A DNA stretch of 64,000 bases from Phaeacidiphilus oryzae TH49 (GTDB lineage: Bacteria; Actinomycetota; Actinomycetes; Streptomycetales; Streptomycetaceae): assembly GCF_000744815.1 (NCBI RefSeq), contig NZ_JQMQ01000005.1, positions 1,868,055-1,932,054 on the forward strand, read 5' to 3'. Positions within the stretch are counted from its first letter, which is position 1. The number at the start of each line of letters is the position of its first letter. Below are positions 10,515-22,865 of the stretch, piece after piece. The translations under genes and the position numbers were made by a program. The notes beneath the pieces were generated by a model, which did no database searches, had not been told where the DNA came from, and saw nothing but the letters and a program-made list of their open reading frames with translations.

Positions 10515-13500
10515 TCAGCCCTCCGGGCTCTGCTCAGGGCGCCGGCTCTCCCGTTCGCCCTCCGCTAGGCGGGCGTCGGTGTCGCCGAGTACCTGGACCG
10601 CCTGGTCCAGGCCGGCCCGCCGGCAGCGCGGAACGGTCTCGGCGATCCGCCGTCTGGCCTCGGTGAAGCGGGAGAGCCGACCCTCGACCAGGGCGGCGAT
10701 CCGGACGGCCTCGGCCCTGGGCGCCTCGGTCTCGGGGTCGTCGGGGCCGGGGCCCGACTCGTAGGCGGCGATGGCGCGCTCCAGCTCGGCCAGGCCCTCC
10801 TGGTAGCGCTCCGCGTCGGCCAGCAGGCGGCCCCGCCGGTAGCCGGACTGGCCGGACTGGAACCAGGCCTGGACCGGCAGTCCGGCCCCGACCGCGTCGG
10901 CCAGCACGGAGTCGGCCCGGTCGAGAAGGGCCAGGGCCTCGGGGAGGGCGTCCTCCGCCTCGGACCGCCCGATCCGGCTCGCCGACTCATGGAGCATCGC
11001 GACCGCGTGGTCGGCGCGCGGGGCGCGGCGGTGGGCGGTGAGGGCGTGTTCGCGCGCGGTGGCGGCCTCCTCCGGGCGCCCGGCCCGGAGGAGGGCGACG
11101 GCGGCCTCGCAGGCGACCATGGTGTGGACGCCCTGCTCGTCCTCCGGCCAGTCCGCGATGGCGGCGGCCAGGGAGACGAACTCCTCGGCCGCGTCCCGGT
11201 GTTCCCCCAGTTCGGTGAGGCCGCGGGCGAGGTCGAGGCGGGCCTGGGCGCGCTGCCGCCCCTCCAGGCCGCCGCGCTGCGCCGGCCCGCTCTCGATGTG
11301 GAGGAGGGATTCGAGGATCGAGACCGCTTCGGCGGTGCGGCCGGTGTCCCGCAGCAGGGTGGCCAGCAGGCAGCGGGAGCGGGCGGCCTCGGCGGGGACG
11401 CCGTCGCGGTCGAAGCCGTCGGCCGCCGCGGTGAGGTGCTGGGCGGCCTCGGCCGGCCGGCCGCTGGAGGCGAGGGCGAAGCCGAGCAGCGAGTGCGCCG
11501 AGGCGTGCGGGAAGTCCCGTTCGCCGGGGTGGACCGCGGCCAGGGCCAGCGCCTCCCGGGCGGTCTCGACGGCCTCCGGCAGGCGGTTCGAGCGCATCCG
11601 GATCTCGGCCCGCAGCAGCAGCACGCGGGGCAGCCGCCAGGGATGGCCGCAGTCGGTCAGGATCCGCTCGGCGTGGGCGAGTTCGGCCTCGGCCCGCTCG
11701 GGGTCGCCGTGCCGGAGGAGCACCAGGGCCGCGTACTCGTACGCGGTGGCCTCGCAGTGCGGACGGCCGGCCCGGCGAGCCTCGGCGAGGAGGGCCGCGT
11801 TCTCCCGCTCGAAGCGGGCGAGCACCTCCGGCTCCTGCTCCCCCGCCGGAGCCGACTCCCCCGCCGGCTCGGCGGCGGGTAGTTCGGTGGCCTCGCGGTA
11901 GGCGGCGAAGGCGCGGCACTGGCGGATCAGCACCTGCTCCAGCGGTTCCGCCTCGCCGGCCGCACGGTCGAGGACCTCGTCCAGCTCCGCCCAGTCGATC
12001 GATTCCCCGTCCTCCCGGCGGCCGGCCCGGCGGGCGCGGGCGAGGAGCGCCCGGCCGGGCACTCCCGCGCGGGCGTACAGGTCGGCCGCGACGGCGAGTT
12101 CGGCGCGGGCCTCGGTGGTCCGGCCGCGGTCGCCGTGCTCGAAGGCACGGCGTTCGGCGAGCTCGGCGGAGAGGAGCTCGGGCGGGCCGAGGTCGGGGTC
12201 GAGGGGGGTGGCGGGGTCCGCCGGGCCACCCGGGCCGATCCGGCGGGCGATCTCGCGCCAGAGGCCGTCGGTGTCCGGAAGACCGTCGAGGCGCAGCGCG
12301 CGGGCCCGGCGGATCAGCTCGGACAGGTCCTGCTTGGACAGGTCCTGCCCGGTCATCCCGGTCCCCGCCGCCTGGGCGCTCTCCGCAGCGTTCGCGACGG
12401 CCGGCTCCGGGGCGGGGACGGTCGCGGGCAGCAGGGCGACGCGGAGGCCGAGGGCGAGCGGCCGGTCGGTGAGCGGGCGGCGGGCCAGCCTGGCGCGGCG
12501 CTGGTCGGAGCAGGCGGTGGTGCCGTTGCGGGCGTCGAAGCGCTCGGCGATGGCCTGCCCCTCGCGCTCGGCCCACTCGTGGAGGCCGCGCACGGTCCAG
12601 CTGCCGCCGGGCGGGTCCGCGGCGGGCGCGTCGCCGTGCCCGAGCTCCAGCAGACGGGCCGTCAACTGCTGTACCCCGGCCAGGAGTCCGTGGTAGGAGC
12701 GCGGGTCGCCGGCCGCCCCGGCGAACCGCTCCCGGTTCTCGGCGAGGATCTCGAGTCCGCGCGGTTCGTTGCCGCTGAGCGCGCAGAACTCCAGGTGGAG
12801 CCCGATCTGCCCGTTGGCGCTCGCCGACCGCCGGGCGGCCCGGTAGCCGGACAGGTGGGCGGTGCGGGCCTCCTCCAGCCGGCCCAGCCGGAGCAGCGGG
12901 AGGAGGGCCGTGCCCTGGCTGGAGTACGGCTCGATACTGCAGGTGCTGCGGCCGTCCAGGGCCGGGCGCAGGGCCTCGACCGCCCGCTCGTCCTCGCCGC
13001 GCAGCACGAAGTACTCGGCCTTGTGGCGGTGTTCGCAGACCTCGCAGTCGCTGTACCGGGCGCGCGGGCGGGCCGCCCACAGCTCGAAGGCCTCCTCGCG
13101 GCCGATGCCGGTGTGGTCGGCCAGGTGGAACCGCCGGGCGTAGTACGGCTGGAGGTCGAGTCCGGCCTCCTGGTAGCGGCGGCGCATCTCGGCCAGCCAG
13201 CCGTGGGAGCTCTCCAGCGGCACCTCGGGCAGCCCGAGGAGGGCACTGGCCACCCACTTGAACCGCCAGAAGACCTGCTGCCGGGCCCAGTCGCCGAAGG
13301 CCCCCGGGGAGGCGTCCCAGAGCTTGAGTATCCGGGCGAAGACCACCGGGACCTTCCGGGTCTCGGTGTCGTACTCGTACGCCTCCATCAGGTCGAGGAG
13401 GGCCAGCACGAGCAGCTCGTCGTCGTCGAACTGCTCGGCCGCGGCGGCGAGTTCCTCGGCGACGACGGTACGGGCGCGGCCGTACGGCTCGGCGTCGTTG

Positions 13501-13541
13501 GCGCGGAGGGCGTCGAGGACGGCGTCCCTGGTGTCCAGCAT
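10515..13541 (-). CDS. Large TPR-repeat protein translationally coupled to an HSP90-family protein
   Basis: A protein of about 1,008 residues made mostly of helical tetratricopeptide-like repeats. The first 350 residues include a cysteine cluster CEVCEHRHKAEYFVLRG that resembles a metal-binding or TPR start, followed by repeated A/L-rich helix pairs such as LRLGRLEEARTAHLSGYRAA. Residues about 460-1000 are classical TPR-like pairs, for example ERAEAELAHAERILTDCGHP and AQARLDLARGLTELGEHRDA. No signal peptide or membrane segment is present. The ATG overlaps the stop of the HSP90 gene (TGATG), so the two are translationally coupled. TPR proteins commonly dock to HSP90, so a dedicated co-chaperone or client scaffold is a reasonable inference. 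Confidence 0.8.
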   Translation of the reverse strand: MLDTRDAVLDALRANDAEPYGRARTVVAEELAAAAEQFDDDELLVLALLDLMEAYEYDTETRKVPVVFARILKLWDASPGAFGDWARQQVFWRFKWVASALLGLPEVPLESSHGWLAEMRRRYQEAGLDLQPYYARRFHLADHTGIGREEAFELWAARPRARYSDCEVCEHRHKAEYFVLRGEDERAVEALRPALDGRSTCSIEPYSSQGTALLPLLRLGRLEEARTAHLSGYRAARRSASANGQIGLHLEFCALSGNEPRGLEILAENRERFAGAAGDPRSYHGLLAGVQQLTARLLELGHGDAPAADPPGGSWTVRGLHEWAEREGQAIAERFDARNGTTACSDQRRARLARRPLTDRPLALGLRVALLPATVPAPEPAVANAAESAQAAGTGMTGQDLSKQDLSELIRRARALRLDGLPDTDGLWREIARRIGPGGPADPATPLDPDLGPPELLSAELAERRAFEHGDRGRTTEARAELAVAADLYARAGVPGRALLARARRAGRREDGESIDWAELDEVLDRAAGEAEPLEQVLIRQCRAFAAYREATELPAAEPAGESAPAGEQEPEVLARFERENAALLAEARRAGRPHCEATAYEYAALVLLRHGDPERAEAELAHAERILTDCGHPWRLPRVLLLRAEIRMRSNRLPEAVETAREALALAAVHPGERDFPHASAHSLLGFALASSGRPAEAAQHLTAAADGFDRDGVPAEAARSRCLLATLLRDTGRTAEAVSILESLLHIESGPAQRGGLEGRQRAQARLDLARGLTELGEHRDAAEEFVSLAAAIADWPEDEQGVHTMVACEAAVALLRAGRPEEAATAREHALTAHRRAPRADHAVAMLHESASRIGRSEAEDALPEALALLDRADSVLADAVGAGLPVQAWFQSGQSGYRRGRLLADAERYQEGLAELERAIAAYESGPGPDDPETEAPRAEAVRIAALVEGRLSRFTEARRRIAETVPRCRRAGLDQAVQVLGDTDARLAEGERESRRPEQSPEG

Positions 13542-15460
13542 CAGCGCTCCCTGCCGTGCGGGCCGTCGGTTCCTTGGCGGCCGCCGGGGCGGCCGGCGTC
13601 CTCGACCGCGCCGAGGGCGAAGTCGAGGAGGTTGAGGGAGGCCCGGTTGAGGAGCGCGGACTCGCTGGGGCGCAGCGGCCGGCGGGTCATCAGCAGGGCC
13701 TGGCCGTAGAGGGTCTCCACGGCGGTGGCCGCCAGCTCCCGGTGGCCGATCCCGACGGCCCGGCGGACCAGCGGGTTGAGGTGGTTGAGGATCAGCTGCG
13801 CACGGGGCTCGGCGGAGCGCAGCGAGCCGAGGATGTCCGCCCACAACCCGTCCGCCTCCTGGGCGAGTTCGGCCCGGGTGCGCTCGTGCCGGGCCTCCCG
13901 GTCGTCCAGCAGCAGGGCGGGTGCGGCGGCGGGGTGGAAGCTGCGCAGGGCGACGTCGCACTCGAAGCGGGCGACGGTCTCCCGGGCGATCGCCAGGAAG
14001 CCGGCCGCGGCCAGCTCCACCACCGGGTCGACGCCGTCCAGATGGGCGGTGACGGTGTCCGGGTCGAGGTCGGCGACGGTGGTGCCGGGACGGACCTCGG
14101 GCAGCCGGTGGACCAGGTCGCGGACGTAGGCGTAGCCGCCGTTCACCACGCCGAGTCCGGCCGCCGAGGCGATCTGCGCGACCTGCCGGAACTCCTCGAC
14201 GGTGCGGGTGACCAGCACCACCGGGTGGCTGCGGGCGAACTCGTCGAGGGTGACGTCCCCGTCCGTGGTCTCGAACGGCAGCCAGGGCAGCAGCACCCGC
14301 AGGAGCTCGTCGTCGTAGCGGGCGAGCGCCTTGATGGCGAGGTGGTGGACGGCGGCGAACCGCTGGAGCAGCACGGGGTCGGAGGCGGAGAGGCCGGCCA
14401 GCCAGTCCCGGATCCGGGCGCCCAGGGCGTCCCGGACCGCGGCCAGCGTCTCGTCCTCGTACAGCGCCTCGCGGGAGGCGGTCGGGCGGAGGCTGTCCGC
14501 GTCCACCGCGCAGCGCACGAAGTACGCCCACTCCGGAAGGAGTTCCTCGCCGCGCTCGGTGAGGAGCATCCCCTTGAGGTGCACCCGGTGGCCGGAGCGG
14601 CGGTCCGCGGGGACGTCCTCGGGGAGGACGAAGGCCGCGCCGGTGAGCCCGACCGCGGGCAGCGCCAGGTCGATCGAGGCGAGCGGGGTGAAGCCGAAGG
14701 TCTCGCGGCAGTACCCGGCCAGGGCCTCGGCCCGTTCGGCGCGGGTGGCGTGGCGGCGGGCCCAGGGCGGCGGGGTGTCGTCGATCCGGACGGCGCCGTC
14801 CCGCGCCCCCTCCTCCTCCACGGTGACCGGGTGCCGCAGCAGCCGGCCGTAGTGGAGGGCGAGCCGGCGGACCTCGGCGGGGGCGGTGTACTCGGCGGCG
14901 TCCGGGCGGGGCCGCAGGCTGACGGTGGTGCCGGGCTCGGGCTGGGCGGAGGCGGGGAGGACGGTGAGGGTGTACCGGCCGTCGGAGCCGCCGACCCAGC
15001 GGACCGCCGGCGCCCCGGGGTCCGCCGCGGAGCGGCTGACCACGGTGATCTGGTCCGCGACGGTGAAGCAGGCGAGCAGGCCGATGCCGAACTGACCGAT
15101 GAACTCGGCCCTGGTGCCGGCGAGTTGCTCGGCCAGCCGCGCCTCGGGGCCGCCGGCGGACGCGACACGCTTGGAGCTGCGGCCGATGGTGGCGAGGAAG
15201 GTGTGGACGTCGGCCTCGGTGAGGCCGATCCCGGTGTCGGTGACGGTCAGCCGCTCCCCGGTGCGGATGGTGATCCGGGCGGGGGCGTCGGGGTCGCGGG
15301 CCTGCCGGGCGGAGACCGCGTCCACCGCGTTCTGCAGCAGCTCGCGCAGGTAGACCTGGGGGCTGGTGTAGAGGTGGTGGGAGAGGAGGTCGACGAGCCC
15401 GCGCAGGTCCACCTGGAAGAGGCGGGCGTCGTCCGACGGCTGGGCTGCTGGTGCTGACAC
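13541..15460 (-). CDS. HSP90/HtpG-family GHKL ATPase
   Basis: A 639-residue HSP90-type protein. The Bergerat ATP site is complete: ELLQNAVDAVSAR (E and N), VTDTGIGLT (DxGxG) and EFIGQFGIGLLACF (lid glycines). The middle domain contains a typical HSP90 segment HRVHLKGMLLTERGEELLPEW and SLRPTASREALYEDETL, the conserved catalytic-arginine region. It is HtpG-like in length but diverges from classical HtpG at the N-terminus and C-terminus. GTG start at 15460; no strong ribosome site. The next gene (TPR) overlaps by 1 nt, and a DUF4034-like gene lies 114 nt upstream on the same strand. Confidence 0.88.
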   Translation of the reverse strand: MSAPAAQPSDDARLFQVDLRGLVDLLSHHLYTSPQVYLRELLQNAVDAVSARQARDPDAPARITIRTGERLTVTDTGIGLTEADVHTFLATIGRSSKRVASAGGPEARLAEQLAGTRAEFIGQFGIGLLACFTVADQITVVSRSAADPGAPAVRWVGGSDGRYTLTVLPASAQPEPGTTVSLRPRPDAAEYTAPAEVRRLALHYGRLLRHPVTVEEEGARDGAVRIDDTPPPWARRHATRAERAEALAGYCRETFGFTPLASIDLALPAVGLTGAAFVLPEDVPADRRSGHRVHLKGMLLTERGEELLPEWAYFVRCAVDADSLRPTASREALYEDETLAAVRDALGARIRDWLAGLSASDPVLLQRFAAVHHLAIKALARYDDELLRVLLPWLPFETTDGDVTLDEFARSHPVVLVTRTVEEFRQVAQIASAAGLGVVNGGYAYVRDLVHRLPEVRPGTTVADLDPDTVTAHLDGVDPVVELAAAGFLAIARETVARFECDVALRSFHPAAAPALLLDDREARHERTRAELAQEADGLWADILGSLRSAEPRAQLILNHLNPLVRRAVGIGHRELAATAVETLYGQALLMTRRPLRPSESALLNRASLNLLDFALGAVEDAGRPGGRQGTDGPHGRER

Positions 15461-15574
15461 GGCTGGTACGGCCCCCTGGAGATGCGGCTTCTCGGTATCG
15501 GCGTGGTGGGCGGGTCGGCGGGCGGGATCGACGGGTGGATCGGCGGGCGGCTTGGTGGGCGACTCGGCGGGCGG

Positions 15575-16642
15575 TCAGCCGAGACAGCGGTCGCGGTGCA
15601 GTCGGAAGGCCGCCTCCGGCCCCGAGTTGAAGTACTGCCAGGGCGCCTCGGTGACCAGGCCGTCCAGTTCGAGGAAGAGCCGGCGGGCCGACTCGTCGTC
15701 CCGGGCCAGCGAGAAGGCCATCGCGAACACGTTGTGGACCAGCTGCCAGCCGGGCCGGCGGGGGAAGTCGGGGTGGAAGACGGAACGGCGGGCCGCCTCG
15801 ACCAGCTCCTCGCGGACGGCCGGCCGCCGGAGGTAGGCGGCCCCCTCGGCCCCGCCGTCCAGCTCGCACCAGTGCTCGACATGGGCGCGGGCGACCAGCT
15901 CGTGCAGCGGGCTGCCGTCCGGGGCCGCGGCGGAGACCTCACGGGCGAAGCCGTGCAGCTCCTCGAAGGAGCCGCTCCACCGGGGGCAGAATCCGAGCAG
16001 CCGGTCGCGGTGGGCGGTCAGGTCGGACGGGGAGCGGCGGACGGCGGCCTCGAAGCGGACGCGGGAGATCTCCGGGCCCAGACTGGCCCCCCTGGCGATC
16101 ACCAGCAGGGAGTTCCAGGGCGCGGACCACGCCGGACGCAGCTCGGCGGCCCGGAAGAGCTGCTCCTCGGCGATGCGCAGCCGGTCGAAGAAGGTGTCCC
16201 ACTGCTCGCGGCTGACGTCCTTCGCGAGGGCCGAGGTGCGGGCCTCCCAGCCCCATCTGACGTGCCGCGCGCCGGAGAGGAGCAGGGGCAGGGCGGCCCC
16301 TTCGCCGTCGCCCCCTTCGCGTCCTCCGCCCCCTTCGGGTCCTTCGCGTCCTTCCCCCTGCCCGTCCCCTGCGGCTGCCTCCTCCTTCTCGGCCTTCTCG
16401 GCCGCGGCGGGCAGCCACTCCTCCAGGCCCTTCAGCCCGGCGAGGCCCGAGACGAGCCGGCCGAGGTCCTCCGGGTCGTCCGGGTCGAGGGCGGAGAGGA
16501 GGGCGTCGCGCAGCGCCGGCCAGTCGCGGGCGGCGGCCACCGAGCGCAGGCCGCTTATCCGGTGGTCGCCGCAGTCGGGATCGAGCCGTACGGCGGCCCG
16601 CCCGCGCATCCGCCGCCCGAGCGTCCCGAACAGACTCTTCAC
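15575..16642 (-). CDS. DUF4034-like hypothetical protein upstream of the HSP90 gene
   Basis: A 355-residue cytoplasmic protein with no signal peptide. Residues 1-75 are helical (RSVAAARDWPALRDALLSAL). Residues about 85-120 form a charged, Gly/Glu-rich linker. The rest resembles DUF4034-type proteins: RIAEEQLFRAAELRPAWSAPW, then LEHW-type and WQLVHNVFAMAFSLARDDES. It is alpha-helical and TPR-like overall. GTG start with GGGGGGAA just upstream. It probably heads the HSP90/TPR group. Its biochemical role is unknown, and the DUF4034 assignment is from memory of the pattern, not a search. Confidence 0.65.
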   Translation of the reverse strand: MKSLFGTLGRRMRGRAAVRLDPDCGDHRISGLRSVAAARDWPALRDALLSALDPDDPEDLGRLVSGLAGLKGLEEWLPAAAEKAEKEEAAAGDGQGEGREGPEGGGGREGGDGEGAALPLLLSGARHVRWGWEARTSALAKDVSREQWDTFFDRLRIAEEQLFRAAELRPAWSAPWNSLLVIARGASLGPEISRVRFEAAVRRSPSDLTAHRDRLLGFCPRWSGSFEELHGFAREVSAAAPDGSPLHELVARAHVEHWCELDGGAEGAAYLRRPAVREELVEAARRSVFHPDFPRRPGWQLVHNVFAMAFSLARDDESARRLFLELDGLVTEAPWQYFNSGPEAAFRLHRDRCLG

Positions 16643-17973: not shown

Positions 17974-18717
17974 TCAGGCCAGTCCGTTGACCAGTTCCGC
18001 GATCGGCTTGCGGCGGCCGGTGTAGAACGGGACCTCCTCGCGGACGTGGAGGCGGGCGCGGGAGGCGCGGAGGTGGCGCATCAGGTCCACGATCCGGTGC
18101 AGCTCGTCGGCCTCGAAGGCGAGGATCCACTCGTAGTCGCCGAGGGCGAAGGAGGCCACGGTGTTGGCCCGGACGTCCGGGTAGCCGCGGGCCATCTTGC
18201 CGTGCTCGGCGAGCATCTCGCGGCGGTCCTTGTCCTCCAGCAGGTACCAGTCGTACGAGCGGATGAACGGGTAGACGCAGATGTAGTCGCGAGCGTGCTC
18301 GTCGGCCAGGAAGGCCGGGATGTGCGACTTGTTGAACTCCGCCGGGCGGTGCAGCGCCATGTTGGACCACACCGGCTCCAGGGCGCGGCCGAACCTGGTG
18401 CGGCGGAAGAGGTTGTACGCCTCCTGCAGGTCGTCGCTGTCCTCCGCGTGCCACCAGATCATCAGGTCGGCGTCGGCGCGCAGGCCGGAGACGTCGTAGC
18501 TGCCGCGGATGGTCACGCCCTTGCCGGCCAGCTGGTCGAAGAGCTGCTCGACCTCGGCGATCTGGGCGGAGCGGTCCTCCGGCAGCGCCTCGCGGAGCCG
18601 GAACACCGACCACAGGGTGTAGCGGATGACCTCGTTGAGTTCGCGCGCCTTCTTCTTCCCGGGCGCCGTCTCGGGCGCCGCGGTCTCGGCCGCCGCGGTC
18701 TCGGGCGTCTCGCTCAT
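17974..18717 (-). CDS. hemQ: Coproheme decarboxylase (hydrogen peroxide-dependent heme synthase)
   Basis: A 247-residue actinobacterial ChdC/HemQ. Typical features are [17 protein letters not shown], the [20 protein letters not shown] motif, SYDWYLLED with the catalytic tyrosine, and the segment [20 protein letters not shown] with the proximal histidine. It oxidatively decarboxylates coproheme to heme b, the last step of the coproporphyrin-dependent route used by Gram-positive bacteria. The N-terminal 20 residues are an Ala/Glu/Thr linker. The ATG overlaps the hemY stop in ATGA, so the two are coupled. Confidence 0.95.
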
Positions 18718-20264
18718 CGTTCGGTTGTCCTTTCGGTACGTGGGTGTCGGCTCAGGCCGGAGAGTACGTCGTCGGCGGCGCGCCGGCCGCTGCCCACGCA
18801 GGCGGGGATGCCCACTCCGTCGTAGGCGGCACCGCAGAGCGCCAAGTCGGGCAGCTTGCGGGCGAGTTCGCGGATCCGGGCGACCCGGTCCAGATGCCCC
18901 GCCGGGTACTGCGGCAGGCCGCCGTACCAGCGGGTGACCGTCGAGGCGTAGGGGAGGGCGTGGATGCCGGCGGCCTCGCGGAGGTCGCCCAGGGCGGCGG
19001 CGACCAGCTCCTCGTCCGGCAGCTCCAGCGCCTCGGCCTCGCCGTGCCGGCCGAAGGAGGTGCGCAGGACGAAGGAGTCCGGGGCGGACTCGGCCAACCA
19101 GCCCCACTTGTTGCTGGAGAAGGTGGCGGCCTTGATCCGGCGGCCGTCCACCGGCGGCACCAGGAATCCGCTGCCGGGCGGAACGCCGTCGGCGCCACCC
19201 GCACCGAGCGCGGAGCGCTGGAAGACGAGGGTCACCAGGGCCATCGAGGCGTACTCGACCGCCCCCAACTCCCCCGCGGCGGCCGGCGCCTCGGCCGCGA
19301 GGAGGCGGGCCGCGGCGGCGGCCGGGACGGCCAGCACCACCGCGTCCGCGGCGAGCTCCTCGCCGCCCGTGGTGACCGCTCGCCAGCCGTCGGGGGTACG
19401 GCGCAGCTCCTTGACGCCGGTGCCGGTGCGCAGCTCGCCGCCGGCCTCCCGGCAGGCCGCGGCGACGGCGCCCGGCAGCCGGCCGAGGCCGCCTCGGACG
19501 CCCTGGAAGACGGGGGCGGGCGGGGTACCGGGGGCGGCGGCCGAGGACTGAGCGGCGCGCGCGAGGATGCCGCGCACCCCCTCCACCAGCGAGCGTTCGC
19601 GCTGGGCGACCGGCAGCAGCTGGGGGACGGCGGCGCGCATCGAGATCCGGTCCGCGTGGCCGGCGTAGACCCCGCCGAGCAGCGGGTCCACCAGGCGGTC
19701 CACCACCTCGCGGCCGACCCGGGCGGCCACGTACTCGCCGATCGCGACGTCCTCGCCGACCTCGGTGGCCGGGGCGGAGAGGTCCGCGCGGATCCGCCGC
19801 ATCCCCTCCGGGGAGATCACCCCGGTGGCGGCGAGGGCGTTCAGGTCGCCCGGAACGCCCATCACATGGCCGGTCGGCATCGGGCGGAGGGCGCCGCGGG
19901 TCCAGATCGCGGCCTTGGCGGTGGTCGGCGGTTCGAGCTCCGGGCCGAGCCCGGCCGAGCGGGCCAGCTCCACCGCCTCCGGGCGGCGGGCCAGCATGGA
20001 CTCGGCGCCGAGGTCGACGGCGATCCCGCCGACCTCTCCCGGCCGCAGTTTGCCGCCGAAGCGGTCCGCCTCGTCGAGGAGGGTGACGTGGGGGCGCACG
20101 ACCGGGCCGTCCGCGCCAGCTCCTGTGCCAACGCCCGCGCCCGCGCCCGCGCCGCCTCCGCCGAGGACGCCGAGCAGGCGGGCGGCCGCGGCGAGGCCGG
20201 CGATCCCCCCGCCGATCACCAGCACCCGGGGCGCCTCGGGCGGAGGAGTGGAACTGCTGCGCAT
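18714..20264 (-). CDS. hemY: Coproporphyrinogen III oxidase / protoporphyrinogen oxidase (HemY/HemG type)
   Basis: A 516-residue FAD enzyme. The dinucleotide motif [19 protein letters not shown] is followed by [18 protein letters not shown] and [16 protein letters not shown], the usual HemY signatures. The C-terminus ends with the FAD-closing motif [18 protein letters not shown]. An insertion of Gly/Ala repeats (about residues 38-55) interrupts the first Rossmann unit and looks like low-complexity expansion. With hemQ downstream, the substrate is most likely coproporphyrinogen III (CgoX activity) rather than protoporphyrinogen. Start ATG at 20264. Confidence 0.93.
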
Positions 20265-20339
20265 GCCTTCAACTCTCTCACCACCCCCGGACGGCCCGGC
20301 AGCCGGGAACCCTTTCCACCGGTTCCGCATCCAAGCGCC

Positions 20340-21686
20340 GTGAAGAGACAGCCATCGAGGGCGAATGCGACCCAGCGGGACCACGAGCCCGCCCCGTCCC
20401 GAAGACGCGGCCGGCCCGGGCCGACCGCGGCCGCGGGTGCCGTACTGCTGGCCGCGGCGCTCTGCGCGCTCACGGCCGGCTGCGGAGGCGGAGGCGGAGG
20501 CGGATCGAGCAGTTCCTCGGCAGAGCGGGCGGGCGGAGCGGCGGCGGCCCCGGCGAACGGCGGGGGCGGTGGGGGCGGTGGAACCGGCGGGAGCGGTGGG
20601 AGCGGTGGGAGCGGTGGCGGCACCGCGAATCAGGGCGGGGCCGCGAGCGGGTCGAGAGCCGGTGGCGTGAGCGGCGGCACGGCCCCGGCGTCCCCCTCCG
20701 CGACCGCGATGCCCGGTCCCGGAGCCGGCCGGCAGATCGTCTACACGGCCGAGACGCAGATCAGCACCCGGCAGCCGGACGCCGCCGTGGCCCGCGCGGA
20801 GCAGCTGACCGCGGCGGCCGGCGGCTACGTCGGCGACGAGACCAGCGGGAACGACGGCGGGATCGTCCAGCCGCAGCAGACCGCGCCGGCGGACGGCCAG
20901 CCGCAGCAGACCGCACCGCTGGCGGAGCCGACCGGGCCGGATCTCAGCCAGGCGGCGCAACTGGTGCTGCGTGTGCCGGCGGGCTCCTTCGACTCGGTCT
21001 ACCACCGGCTGGCCGCGCTGGGCACGGTGCTGGGCCAGGAGCGCTCCGCGCAGGACGTCACCGCGCAGGTCGCGGACGTGGACAGCAGGGTGGCCTCGGC
21101 CCGCGCCAGCGTCCAGCGGATCCGGGACCTGATGGCCAGGGCGCAGACCATCTCCGACCTGACCGCTCTGGAGTCGGTGCTGACCCAGCGCGAGTCGGAC
21201 CTGGAGTCGCTGGAGGCGCAGCAGAAGGGGCTGCGGGACCAGTCGGCGATGTCCACGCTGACGCTGGTGGTCTACCAGCCGGAGCCGGCCGCGCCGACCG
21301 AGCGGCACAAGGGCTCCTCCGGCGTCGGGGCCGCGCTGGCCGGCGGCTGGCACGCGTTCGTGGCGACCGTGCGCTGGATCGTCTCGGCAGTGGCGGCCGC
21401 GCTGCCGTTCCTCGGCGTGGCGGCGGTGGTCGCCGGGCTCTGGGTGTGGCGGGCCCGGCGCAGGCGGGCGGCAGCGCCCGAGCCGCCCGAGCCCCTTGAG
21501 GCCGCCGAGCCCTTCGAACCGGCGGAACCGGCGGAACCGGCGGAACCGATAGAGCCGGCGGAAGCGGCGGCACCGGCGCAAGCGGCGGCACCGGCGCAAG
21601 GGGCGGAAGCGGCGGAAGCAGCGGGGCCCGGGGCGGAGCCGGAGAACCCGGCGCCCGACGGCCCGCCGGCCGGCGAGGCGCGGTGA
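20340..21686 (+). CDS. DUF4349 domain-containing lipoprotein
   Basis: A protein of about 448 residues. The N-terminus has basic residues and a hydrophobic stretch ending in LTAGC (about residue 45), a lipoprotein signal. A long Gly/Ser/Ala-rich spacer follows. The DUF4349 domain runs from about QIVYTAETQISTR to MSTLTLVVYQ, with a coiled-coil SRVASARASVQRIRDLMARA and TALESVLTQRESDLESLEAQ. A membrane helix (VAAALPFLGVAAVVAGLWVW) and a Pro/Glu/Ala repeat tail close the protein. The GTG start at 20340 has no clear ribosome site. Function is unknown; the fold suggests envelope stress sensing or anti-sigma-like use. It lies divergent from hemY. Confidence 0.8.
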   Translation: MKRQPSRANATQRDHEPAPSRRRGRPGPTAAAGAVLLAAALCALTAGCGGGGGGGSSSSSAERAGGAAAAPANGGGGGGGGTGGSGGSGGSGGGTANQGGAASGSRAGGVSGGTAPASPSATAMPGPGAGRQIVYTAETQISTRQPDAAVARAEQLTAAAGGYVGDETSGNDGGIVQPQQTAPADGQPQQTAPLAEPTGPDLSQAAQLVLRVPAGSFDSVYHRLAALGTVLGQERSAQDVTAQVADVDSRVASARASVQRIRDLMARAQTISDLTALESVLTQRESDLESLEAQQKGLRDQSAMSTLTLVVYQPEPAAPTERHKGSSGVGAALAGGWHAFVATVRWIVSAVAAALPFLGVAAVVAGLWVWRARRRRAAAPEPPEPLEAAEPFEPAEPAEPAEPIEPAEAAAPAQAAAPAQGAEAAEAAGPGAEPENPAPDGPPAGEAR

Positions 21687-21696
21687 CCCGGCCCGC

Positions 21697-21731
21697 GCCC
21701 CTGCCGGCCCTCCCCAGCGGGCGGCAGGGGC
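21697..21731. terminator. Bidirectional terminator hairpin between DUF4349 gene and hemE
   Basis: GCCCCTGCCG (21697-21706) pairs perfectly with CGGCAGGGGC (21722-21731), a 10-bp stem with a 15-nt loop. It sits between two converging genes and has no U-tract, as is common in streptomycetes. Confidence 0.65.
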
Positions 21732-21761
21732 CGGCAGCGGCGGCGGCCGGGCGGCAGCCGC

Positions 21762-22865
21762 CTAGCGCTGCGTCGTCTCGTGGACGAACTCGACGAGGTG
21801 GGTCAGGGCGTCCGGGTCCGTGGTGGGCAGGACGCCGTGGCCGAGGTTGAAGATGTGGCCGGCGCCCGCGGACTGCGCGGAGTGGAGCACCTCGCGCGCC
21901 TTGGTGCGGACCACCTCGCGCGGGGCGAAGAGCACCGCCGGGTCCAGGTTGCCCTGGAGCGCCTTGCCGGGGCCGACCCGGACCGCCGCCTCGGTCAGCG
22001 GCACCCGCCAGTCGACGCCGACCACGTCCGCGCCGGCCCGGCCCATCAGCCCGAGCAGCTCGCCGGCGCCCACGCCGAAGTGGATCCGCGGCACCCGGTA
22101 ACCGGCGACCGCCTCGAAGACCTTGGCGCTGGCCGGCATGACGCTGCGCCGGTAGTCCTCCGGGGCCAGCGCGCCCACCCAGGAGTCGAAGAGCTGGACC
22201 GCGCTCGCGCCCGCCTCGATCTGCACCTTGAGGAAGGCGGCGGTGATCCCGGCCAGCCGGTCGAGCAGCTCGTTCCAGAGCTTCGGCTCGCCGTACATCA
22301 ACGCCTTGGTCCGCTCGTGGTTCTTCGAGGGGCCGCCCTCGACCAGGTAGCTGGCCAGGGTGAAGGGCGCGCCGGCGAAGCCGATCAGCGGGGTGGCGCC
22401 GAGCTCGGCCACCAGCAGGCCGATCGCCTCGGCGACGTAGCGGACGTCGTCCGGCTCCAGCGGACGCAGCCGCTCCAGGTCCTTGGCGCTGCGCACCGGG
22501 TCGGCGATCACCGGGCCGACGCCCGGCTTGATCTCCAGGTCGATGCCGATCGCCTTCAGCGGGACGACGATGTCGCTGAAGTAGACGGCGGCGTCCACCT
22601 TGTGCCGGCGGACCGGCTGCAGGGTGATCTCCTTGACCAGCTCAGGACGCATGCAGGACTCGAGCATCGGGATGCCCTCGCGCGCCTTGTGGTATTCCGG
22701 CAGCGAGCGCCCGGCCTGGCGCATGAACCAGACCGGCGTGTGCGGCACCGGCTCGCCGCGGCAGGCGCGCAGGAAGGCGCTGTCCTGGAGGGCGGAGGCC
22801 GGGGCGGCAGGGTCGTTCGGCGTGGCGGATGCTGCGGTGAGCCCAGAGGCGGTCGAATCGGTCAC
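21762..22865 (-). CDS. hemE: Uroporphyrinogen III decarboxylase
   Basis: A 367-residue HemE. The signature [16 protein letters not shown] (about residues 44-59) contains the substrate-binding arginines, [13 protein letters not shown] the catalytic Asp region, and [16 protein letters not shown] another typical segment. The C-terminus has [14 protein letters not shown]. It makes coproporphyrinogen III, the substrate of the hemY product. The first 28 residues are an Ala/Thr-rich extension. GTG start; GAGG lies 9 nt upstream. The DUF3000 gene is divergent. Confidence 0.96.

Follow-up and report, generated by a model that had tools for sequence, protein, structure and literature searches.

A divergent bacterial HSP90 and its conserved TPR partner as a putative two-protein chaperone

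The HSP90 locus and its three genes

The window, a stretch of 64,000 nucleotides of the Phaeacidiphilus oryzae TH49 genome, carries three co-oriented genes on the minus strand, encoding a helical protein, an HSP90-family ATPase and a large TPR protein, in that order (Table 1). The codon-position GC of all three genes was typical of coding sequence. The junction between the HSP90 and TPR genes reads, on the reverse strand, GCGCTGATGCTG, in which a TGATG is common to the HSP90 stop codon (13543-13541) and the TPR start codon ATG (13541-13539), while the helical gene is separated from the HSP90 gene by 114 bp, without overlap. The orientation of the three genes, the TGATG overlap and a TPR protein of about 1,000 residues had all been described in an initial annotation of this DNA and were borne out by the coordinates, coding-like GC and sequence. 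The neighbours in the window are uvrB, genes for an AFG1-like ATPase and a Mur ligase, msrB, and heme-pathway genes including uroporphyrinogen decarboxylase. Upstream of the HSP90-TPR locus, at positions 17974-22865, genes of the chlorite-dismutase family (HemQ-like), for an amine oxidoreductase (HemY-like) and for uroporphyrinogen decarboxylase form a coproporphyrin-type heme cluster.

Table 1. Features of the HSP90-TPR locus (positions in the window)
Feature	Position	Strand	Basis or remark
DUF4034-like helical protein, 355 aa, GTG start	15575-16642	-	treated as accessory, clade-specific
HSP90-family ATPase chaperone, 639 aa, GTG start, type I (NF010683/PRK14083)	13541-15460	-	NF010683, 793 bits
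TPR partner protein, 1,008 aa, ATG start	10515-13541	-	TPR_12 x3
N-module of TPR partner, residues 1-352	12486-13541	-	alignment, n=21 N-modules
C-terminal TPR solenoid of partner, ~residues 406-1008	10518-12326	-	conservation drop and model linker
TGATG stop/start overlap, HSP90/TPR gene	13539-13543	-	sequence

The HSP90 aligned to positions 5-598 of the 604-position model NF010683 ('HSP90 family protein') with a score far above the cut-off of 455, and is a member of the NF010683/PRK14083 family, called type I here, by the curated cut-off and over the full profile. Against the canonical HtpG model NF003555 it reached 172 bits, below the cut-off of 371, and falls outside that family. The AlphaFold2 model (mean pLDDT 86) matched full-length Hsp90, TRAP1 and HtpG in Foldseek, including human HSP90B (E 6.7e-32, 671 columns), and the predicted structure comprises the three parts typical of the HSP90 superfamily: a Bergerat ATPase at the N-terminus, a middle domain and a C-terminal domain. 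The ATPase motifs are kept (catalytic Glu/Asn box, DxGxG, GQFGIG and SRE), with E40/N44, D75/G77/G79, G122/G125/G127 and R330 invariant or nearly so among 34 sequences. As to whether the geldanamycin-insensitive 'HtpG' of S. hygroscopicus belongs to this family, its change N92L was compatible with both lineages, and its change E88G with neither here. A HAIR or CIRCE operator, as a sign of heat-shock regulation, was not found upstream of the HSP90 gene.

A protein search and both HSP90 models detected the window HSP90 as the sole HSP90 of the 7.8 Mb host genome. Canonical HtpG was not found by these searches, which otherwise gave just a weak hit on a sacsin-like ATPase. This protein, of 1,105 aa, contains an HSP90-type ATPase region resembling that of sacsin (L175, 5839-9153); weak matches of similar size occur in many streptomycete genomes and represent another uncharacterised HSP90-like ATPase. 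Other genomes of the streptomycete family differ in their complement, some having type I HSP90 together with canonical HtpG, some two copies and some none. The initial annotation had held that this protein is not the housekeeping HtpG. Its identity as canonical HtpG is indeed ruled out by the family scores and by the tree described below, but as the only Hsp90 found in its genome it may do the housekeeping Hsp90 work of the host.

TPR_12 repeats were found in three stretches of the C-terminal half of the TPR partner. Its AlphaFold2 model (mean pLDDT 91) is an all-alpha continuous solenoid, modelled with low confidence at the linker of residues 368-395, and its closest compact Foldseek matches were TPR superhelices; the repeat matches and the predicted structure together give it the TPR solenoid expected of a TPR co-chaperone of HSP90. 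The most conserved part of the protein is its first ~350 residues, which we call the N-module: conservation was 0.47-0.59 up to residue 350 and 0.28-0.48 thereafter, and the C-terminal solenoid varies in sequence and length among partners. Among 21 aligned N-modules, drawn from Actinomycetota and Bacillota, W92, K95, C166-x2-C169, C201, P205, D336 and R338 were invariant. The hallmarks of the module are an invariant CxxC, a third Cys and FDARN. No Pfam or NCBIfam family covers the N-module, and a PDB search with it returned no supported natural homologue.

The product of the upstream gene had been labelled DUF4034-like and proposed as the pair's own helical helper. No Pfam match was obtained for the window protein itself and its best relative matched DUF4034 (PF13226) at E = 0.015, so the label stands for a faint likeness, that of a distant relative at best. 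The gene was present upstream in 80/80 loci of clade A (the streptomycete clade of the window) and absent at the HSP90 loci of clade B and of other families, and it is a member of a large family of paralogues, which occur without HSP90. Because of this limitation to one streptomycete clade and of these paralogues, it was placed outside the core of the system and is treated as a probable later, clade-specific addition; the helper proposal was not upheld. Two more relatives are encoded in the host genome and relatives occur in 133/150 genomes of the family, forming an unnamed streptomycete family.

Conservation of the HSP90-TPR pairing

The gene directly after the type I HSP90 was a homologue of the TPR partner on the same strand in 133/134 loci, about 13 of the 134 being duplicate retrievals of one and the same place. 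Gene calls in these loci came from a simple codon-usage script, and the spacing between the HSP90 and TPR genes was -8 to +12 nt in 125/134. A lack of conserved gene order, which the initial annotation had named as evidence that would speak against its proposal, was thus not what this neighbourhood survey found. Type I pairs were present in several actinobacterial families with HSP90 identities of 40-60% and different flanking genes and, outside Actinomycetota, in Paenibacillus and Listeria. The single exception (L153, 7734-10369) has a very divergent NF010683 HSP90 directly followed by a gene for a short TPR protein, in which similarity to the usual partner was not detected; this short protein is a possible third partner type. 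One type I pair, with a sigma-factor-like gene, was found in a record filed as 'Bacteriophage sp.' (MT837560; L180, 1-6623), which looks like high-GC bacterial chromosome and not phage.

Stand-alone N-module proteins occur in Listeria and Paenibacillus. The Listeria partners, encoded in tandem and 324 and 320 aa long, consist of the N-module only and matched the module of the window with a BLASTP E of ~1e-12. We take lmo0942 to be the HSP90 of the Listeria pair, from its place beside fri; the papers that name this gene say no more of it than that it is a heat-shock gene or adjoins fri. As the whole Listeria protein is the N-module alone, this module represents the minimal partner, and the variable TPR solenoid is best read as an addition.

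Co-occurrence was assessed in 346 genomes of the host's class, 40 of them with NF010683 above its cut-off and 42 with the N-module. The N-module was found in 39/40 genomes with type I HSP90 and in 3/306 without it (Fisher p 8e-47; Fisher p values overstate independence here because the genomes are related). In a few cases an N-module protein occurs without HSP90, and the module is therefore not strictly tied to it. One such orphan (L197, 3802-8441) is a 1,070-aa TPR giant that has a transposase-like gene immediately upstream; it stands in a Streptomyces-family genome without type I HSP90 and possibly reflects loss of the HSP90 half. A further N-module orphan was found at L199. Two other proteins (L198, 5532-7609; L200, 5969-8019) are fusions of the N-module to a C-terminal YbjN domain with no HSP90 nearby, the first preceded by a separate YbjN-domain gene and the second by a gene of similar size. 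These fusions provide a second genetic context for the N-module.

A sister pair and the HSP90 tree

A second kind of pair, type II, has HSP90s of about 610-650 aa with 27-29% identity to the window HSP90. In the Streptomyces family its partner, a CxxC/TPR protein of 776-808 aa, is encoded directly after the HSP90 and has the invariant cysteines C103, C108, C116 and C146-x2-C149. In profile comparisons, the partners of the two types showed weak overall similarity (single-comparison P of ~1e-3 to 6e-5), with the CxxC motifs aligning. The type II partner was present in 37/38 genomes with type II HSP90 and in 1/112 without it (p 8e-33, again among related genomes), as counted from listings of 150 streptomycete-family genomes in which 37 were shared of 38 for each protein; the lone genome that appeared to have the partner only does carry the HSP90 (L201).

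The pair was also found in Salmonella (611 and 769 aa), with fdhD nearby; the HSP90s of Salmonella and streptomycetes are 53% identical and the partners 32% over 371 aa. Among complete E. coli genomes it was present in 248/5,426 (~5%). In E. coli FDAARGOS_144 (L182, 9001-13144) it lies between fdhD and yiiG, annotated as 'ATP-binding protein' and 'hypothetical protein', and in E. coli K-12 (L205) fdhD and yiiG are directly adjacent. This distribution and the adjacency of the two flanking genes in K-12 make the pair amenable to study in a simple laboratory host.

As a control, loci of canonical HtpG were examined, both from genomes already covered and from their relatives. The neighbours there were varied, with TPR matches in 0/10 of those tested. 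In a tree of 46 HSP90s, type I, the divergent L153 protein and type II were separated from canonical HtpG by a branch with 100/100 support. As all partnered HSP90s fall on one side of this branch, TPR partnering looks like one ancestral trait, as judged from a tree whose root is not fixed and which has some long branches. The proposal of the initial annotation, a specialised HSP90-TPR pair set apart from canonical HtpG, is thus supported by conserved order, coupling and co-occurrence across phyla, and by a fully supported tree group of its own.

Proposed function and relation to known systems

In the usual description, bacterial Hsp90 cooperates with DnaK, and it is not known to have TPR co-chaperones like those of eukaryotes. 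According to an eLife review (PMC11687934), the known clients of bacterial Hsp90 are few, and a 2012 review noted no evidence of a specific HtpG function in a streptomycete (PMC3603443). Several HtpG groups were distinguished by Chen et al. 2006 (PMC1525184), with actinobacterial members in groups A and C; S. coelicolor was shown there to have two HtpG genes, of 638 and 615 aa, the second being divergent. Type I probably corresponds to group C, to which the 615-aa S. coelicolor HTPG2 would belong. The initial annotation had regarded the system as undescribed. This does not apply to the HSP90, already known as PRK14083 and from Chen et al. 2006; for its pairing with a TPR partner, no report was found in the open-access literature searched.

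We infer that the two genes encode a dedicated two-protein chaperone, in which the HSP90 would act with an obligate TPR co-chaperone made together with it, and we assign this reading a probability of roughly 60%. The HSP90, of a divergent bacterial lineage, would be the ATP-driven clamp, and translational coupling would lead to joint production of the two proteins. The N-module would most likely dock on the HSP90 or gate it, which is also the presumed direction of control, perhaps via a metal or redox site formed by its cysteines, and the variable C-terminal solenoid would bind or select clients. A broader proposal is made more tentatively, at somewhat short of an even chance: a widespread bacterial HSP90 lineage would have obligate TPR co-chaperones independent of those of eukaryotes, types I and II would descend from one partnered ancestor, the N-module would gate the ATPase, the solenoid would select clients, and in some actinobacteria the lineage would be the sole HSP90.

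The main rival to the co-chaperone reading is that the TPR protein is a dedicated client or effector, which the HSP90 folds, holds or activates and which then acts elsewhere, in signalling, regulation or stress sensing, much as eukaryotic HSP90 folds, holds and activates NLR immune sensors. One-to-one pairing and translational coupling would suit a chaperone and its client equally well, the large variable solenoid resembles a sensor or scaffold, and orphan TPR copies exist without HSP90. However, the N-module and not the solenoid is the most conserved part, the Listeria partner is a 320-aa module in two copies without an effector domain, and an enzymatic or DNA-binding domain was found in none of the HSP90-linked partners. 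We therefore consider this alternative unlikely, while giving it more weight than those that follow.

That the pair is a GHKL ATPase-based system for anti-phage defence or conflict appears highly improbable. GHKL/HSP90-like ATPases do occur in defence, and the E. coli pair is accessory, as its presence in 248/5,426 genomes indicates. The weak PADLOC matches (TmtA, REase_II) were local, however, covering the generic ATPase domain of the HSP90 and falling short of full length, and the partner proteins had no PADLOC match. The pair also has no effector domain, its neighbours in the window are housekeeping genes (uvrB, msrB, uroporphyrinogen decarboxylase), and in the one E. coli strain inspected it occupies the chromosomal fdhD-yiiG site with no evident mobile element, fdhD being near in Salmonella too. 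In the least probable reading, an ordinary HtpG gene would share its operon with a TPR gene unrelated to it, the adjacency being inherited by chance. This reading might appeal to the many TPR genes of Streptomyces and to gene order common to related genomes, but is contradicted by near-perfect co-occurrence and by an adjacency that persists, with changes on the other flanks, from Actinomycetota to Bacillota in type I and from Streptomyces to Enterobacteria in type II, canonical HtpG having no such neighbour.

TmtA and other GHKL-ATPase defence proteins have just the Bergerat ATP-binding domain in common with the window HSP90, with no similarity outside it and none to the partners. Canonical HtpG (NF003555; group A of Chen et al. 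2006) is a closer relative, with the same HSP90 fold and ATPase motifs and homologous N and middle domains. Identity between the two is nevertheless about 25-31%, the score against the HtpG model lies far below its cut-off, and the window HSP90 has a hydrophilic C-terminal tail and a TPR partner gene, whereas canonical HtpG has its own ending and no partner. The NF010683/PRK14083 family includes the window HSP90, but its definition covers just the HSP90, and the partner is unnamed.

The working analogy is with eukaryotic HSP90 and its TPR co-chaperones (Hop, FKBP51/52, PP5 and AIP), in that an HSP90 is associated with a TPR-solenoid protein. The likeness suggested in the initial annotation does not extend to docking: a MEEVD-like C-terminal ending was present in 0/145 partnered HSP90 entries examined, and textbook eukaryotic docking is therefore unlikely. 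The conserved last residues of many of these HSP90s, RKEL or RKDS, were considered as a docking peptide and not read as such, since their position would cover the expected ribosome-binding site of the TPR gene. The bacterial partner differs from its eukaryotic counterparts in its larger size and in an invariant Cys motif. The bacterial and eukaryotic HSP90-TPR pairs are likely of separate evolutionary origin, and the conserved partner gene offers a handle both on the role of this second bacterial Hsp90 lineage and on whether cooperation between HSP90 and TPR proteins arose twice.
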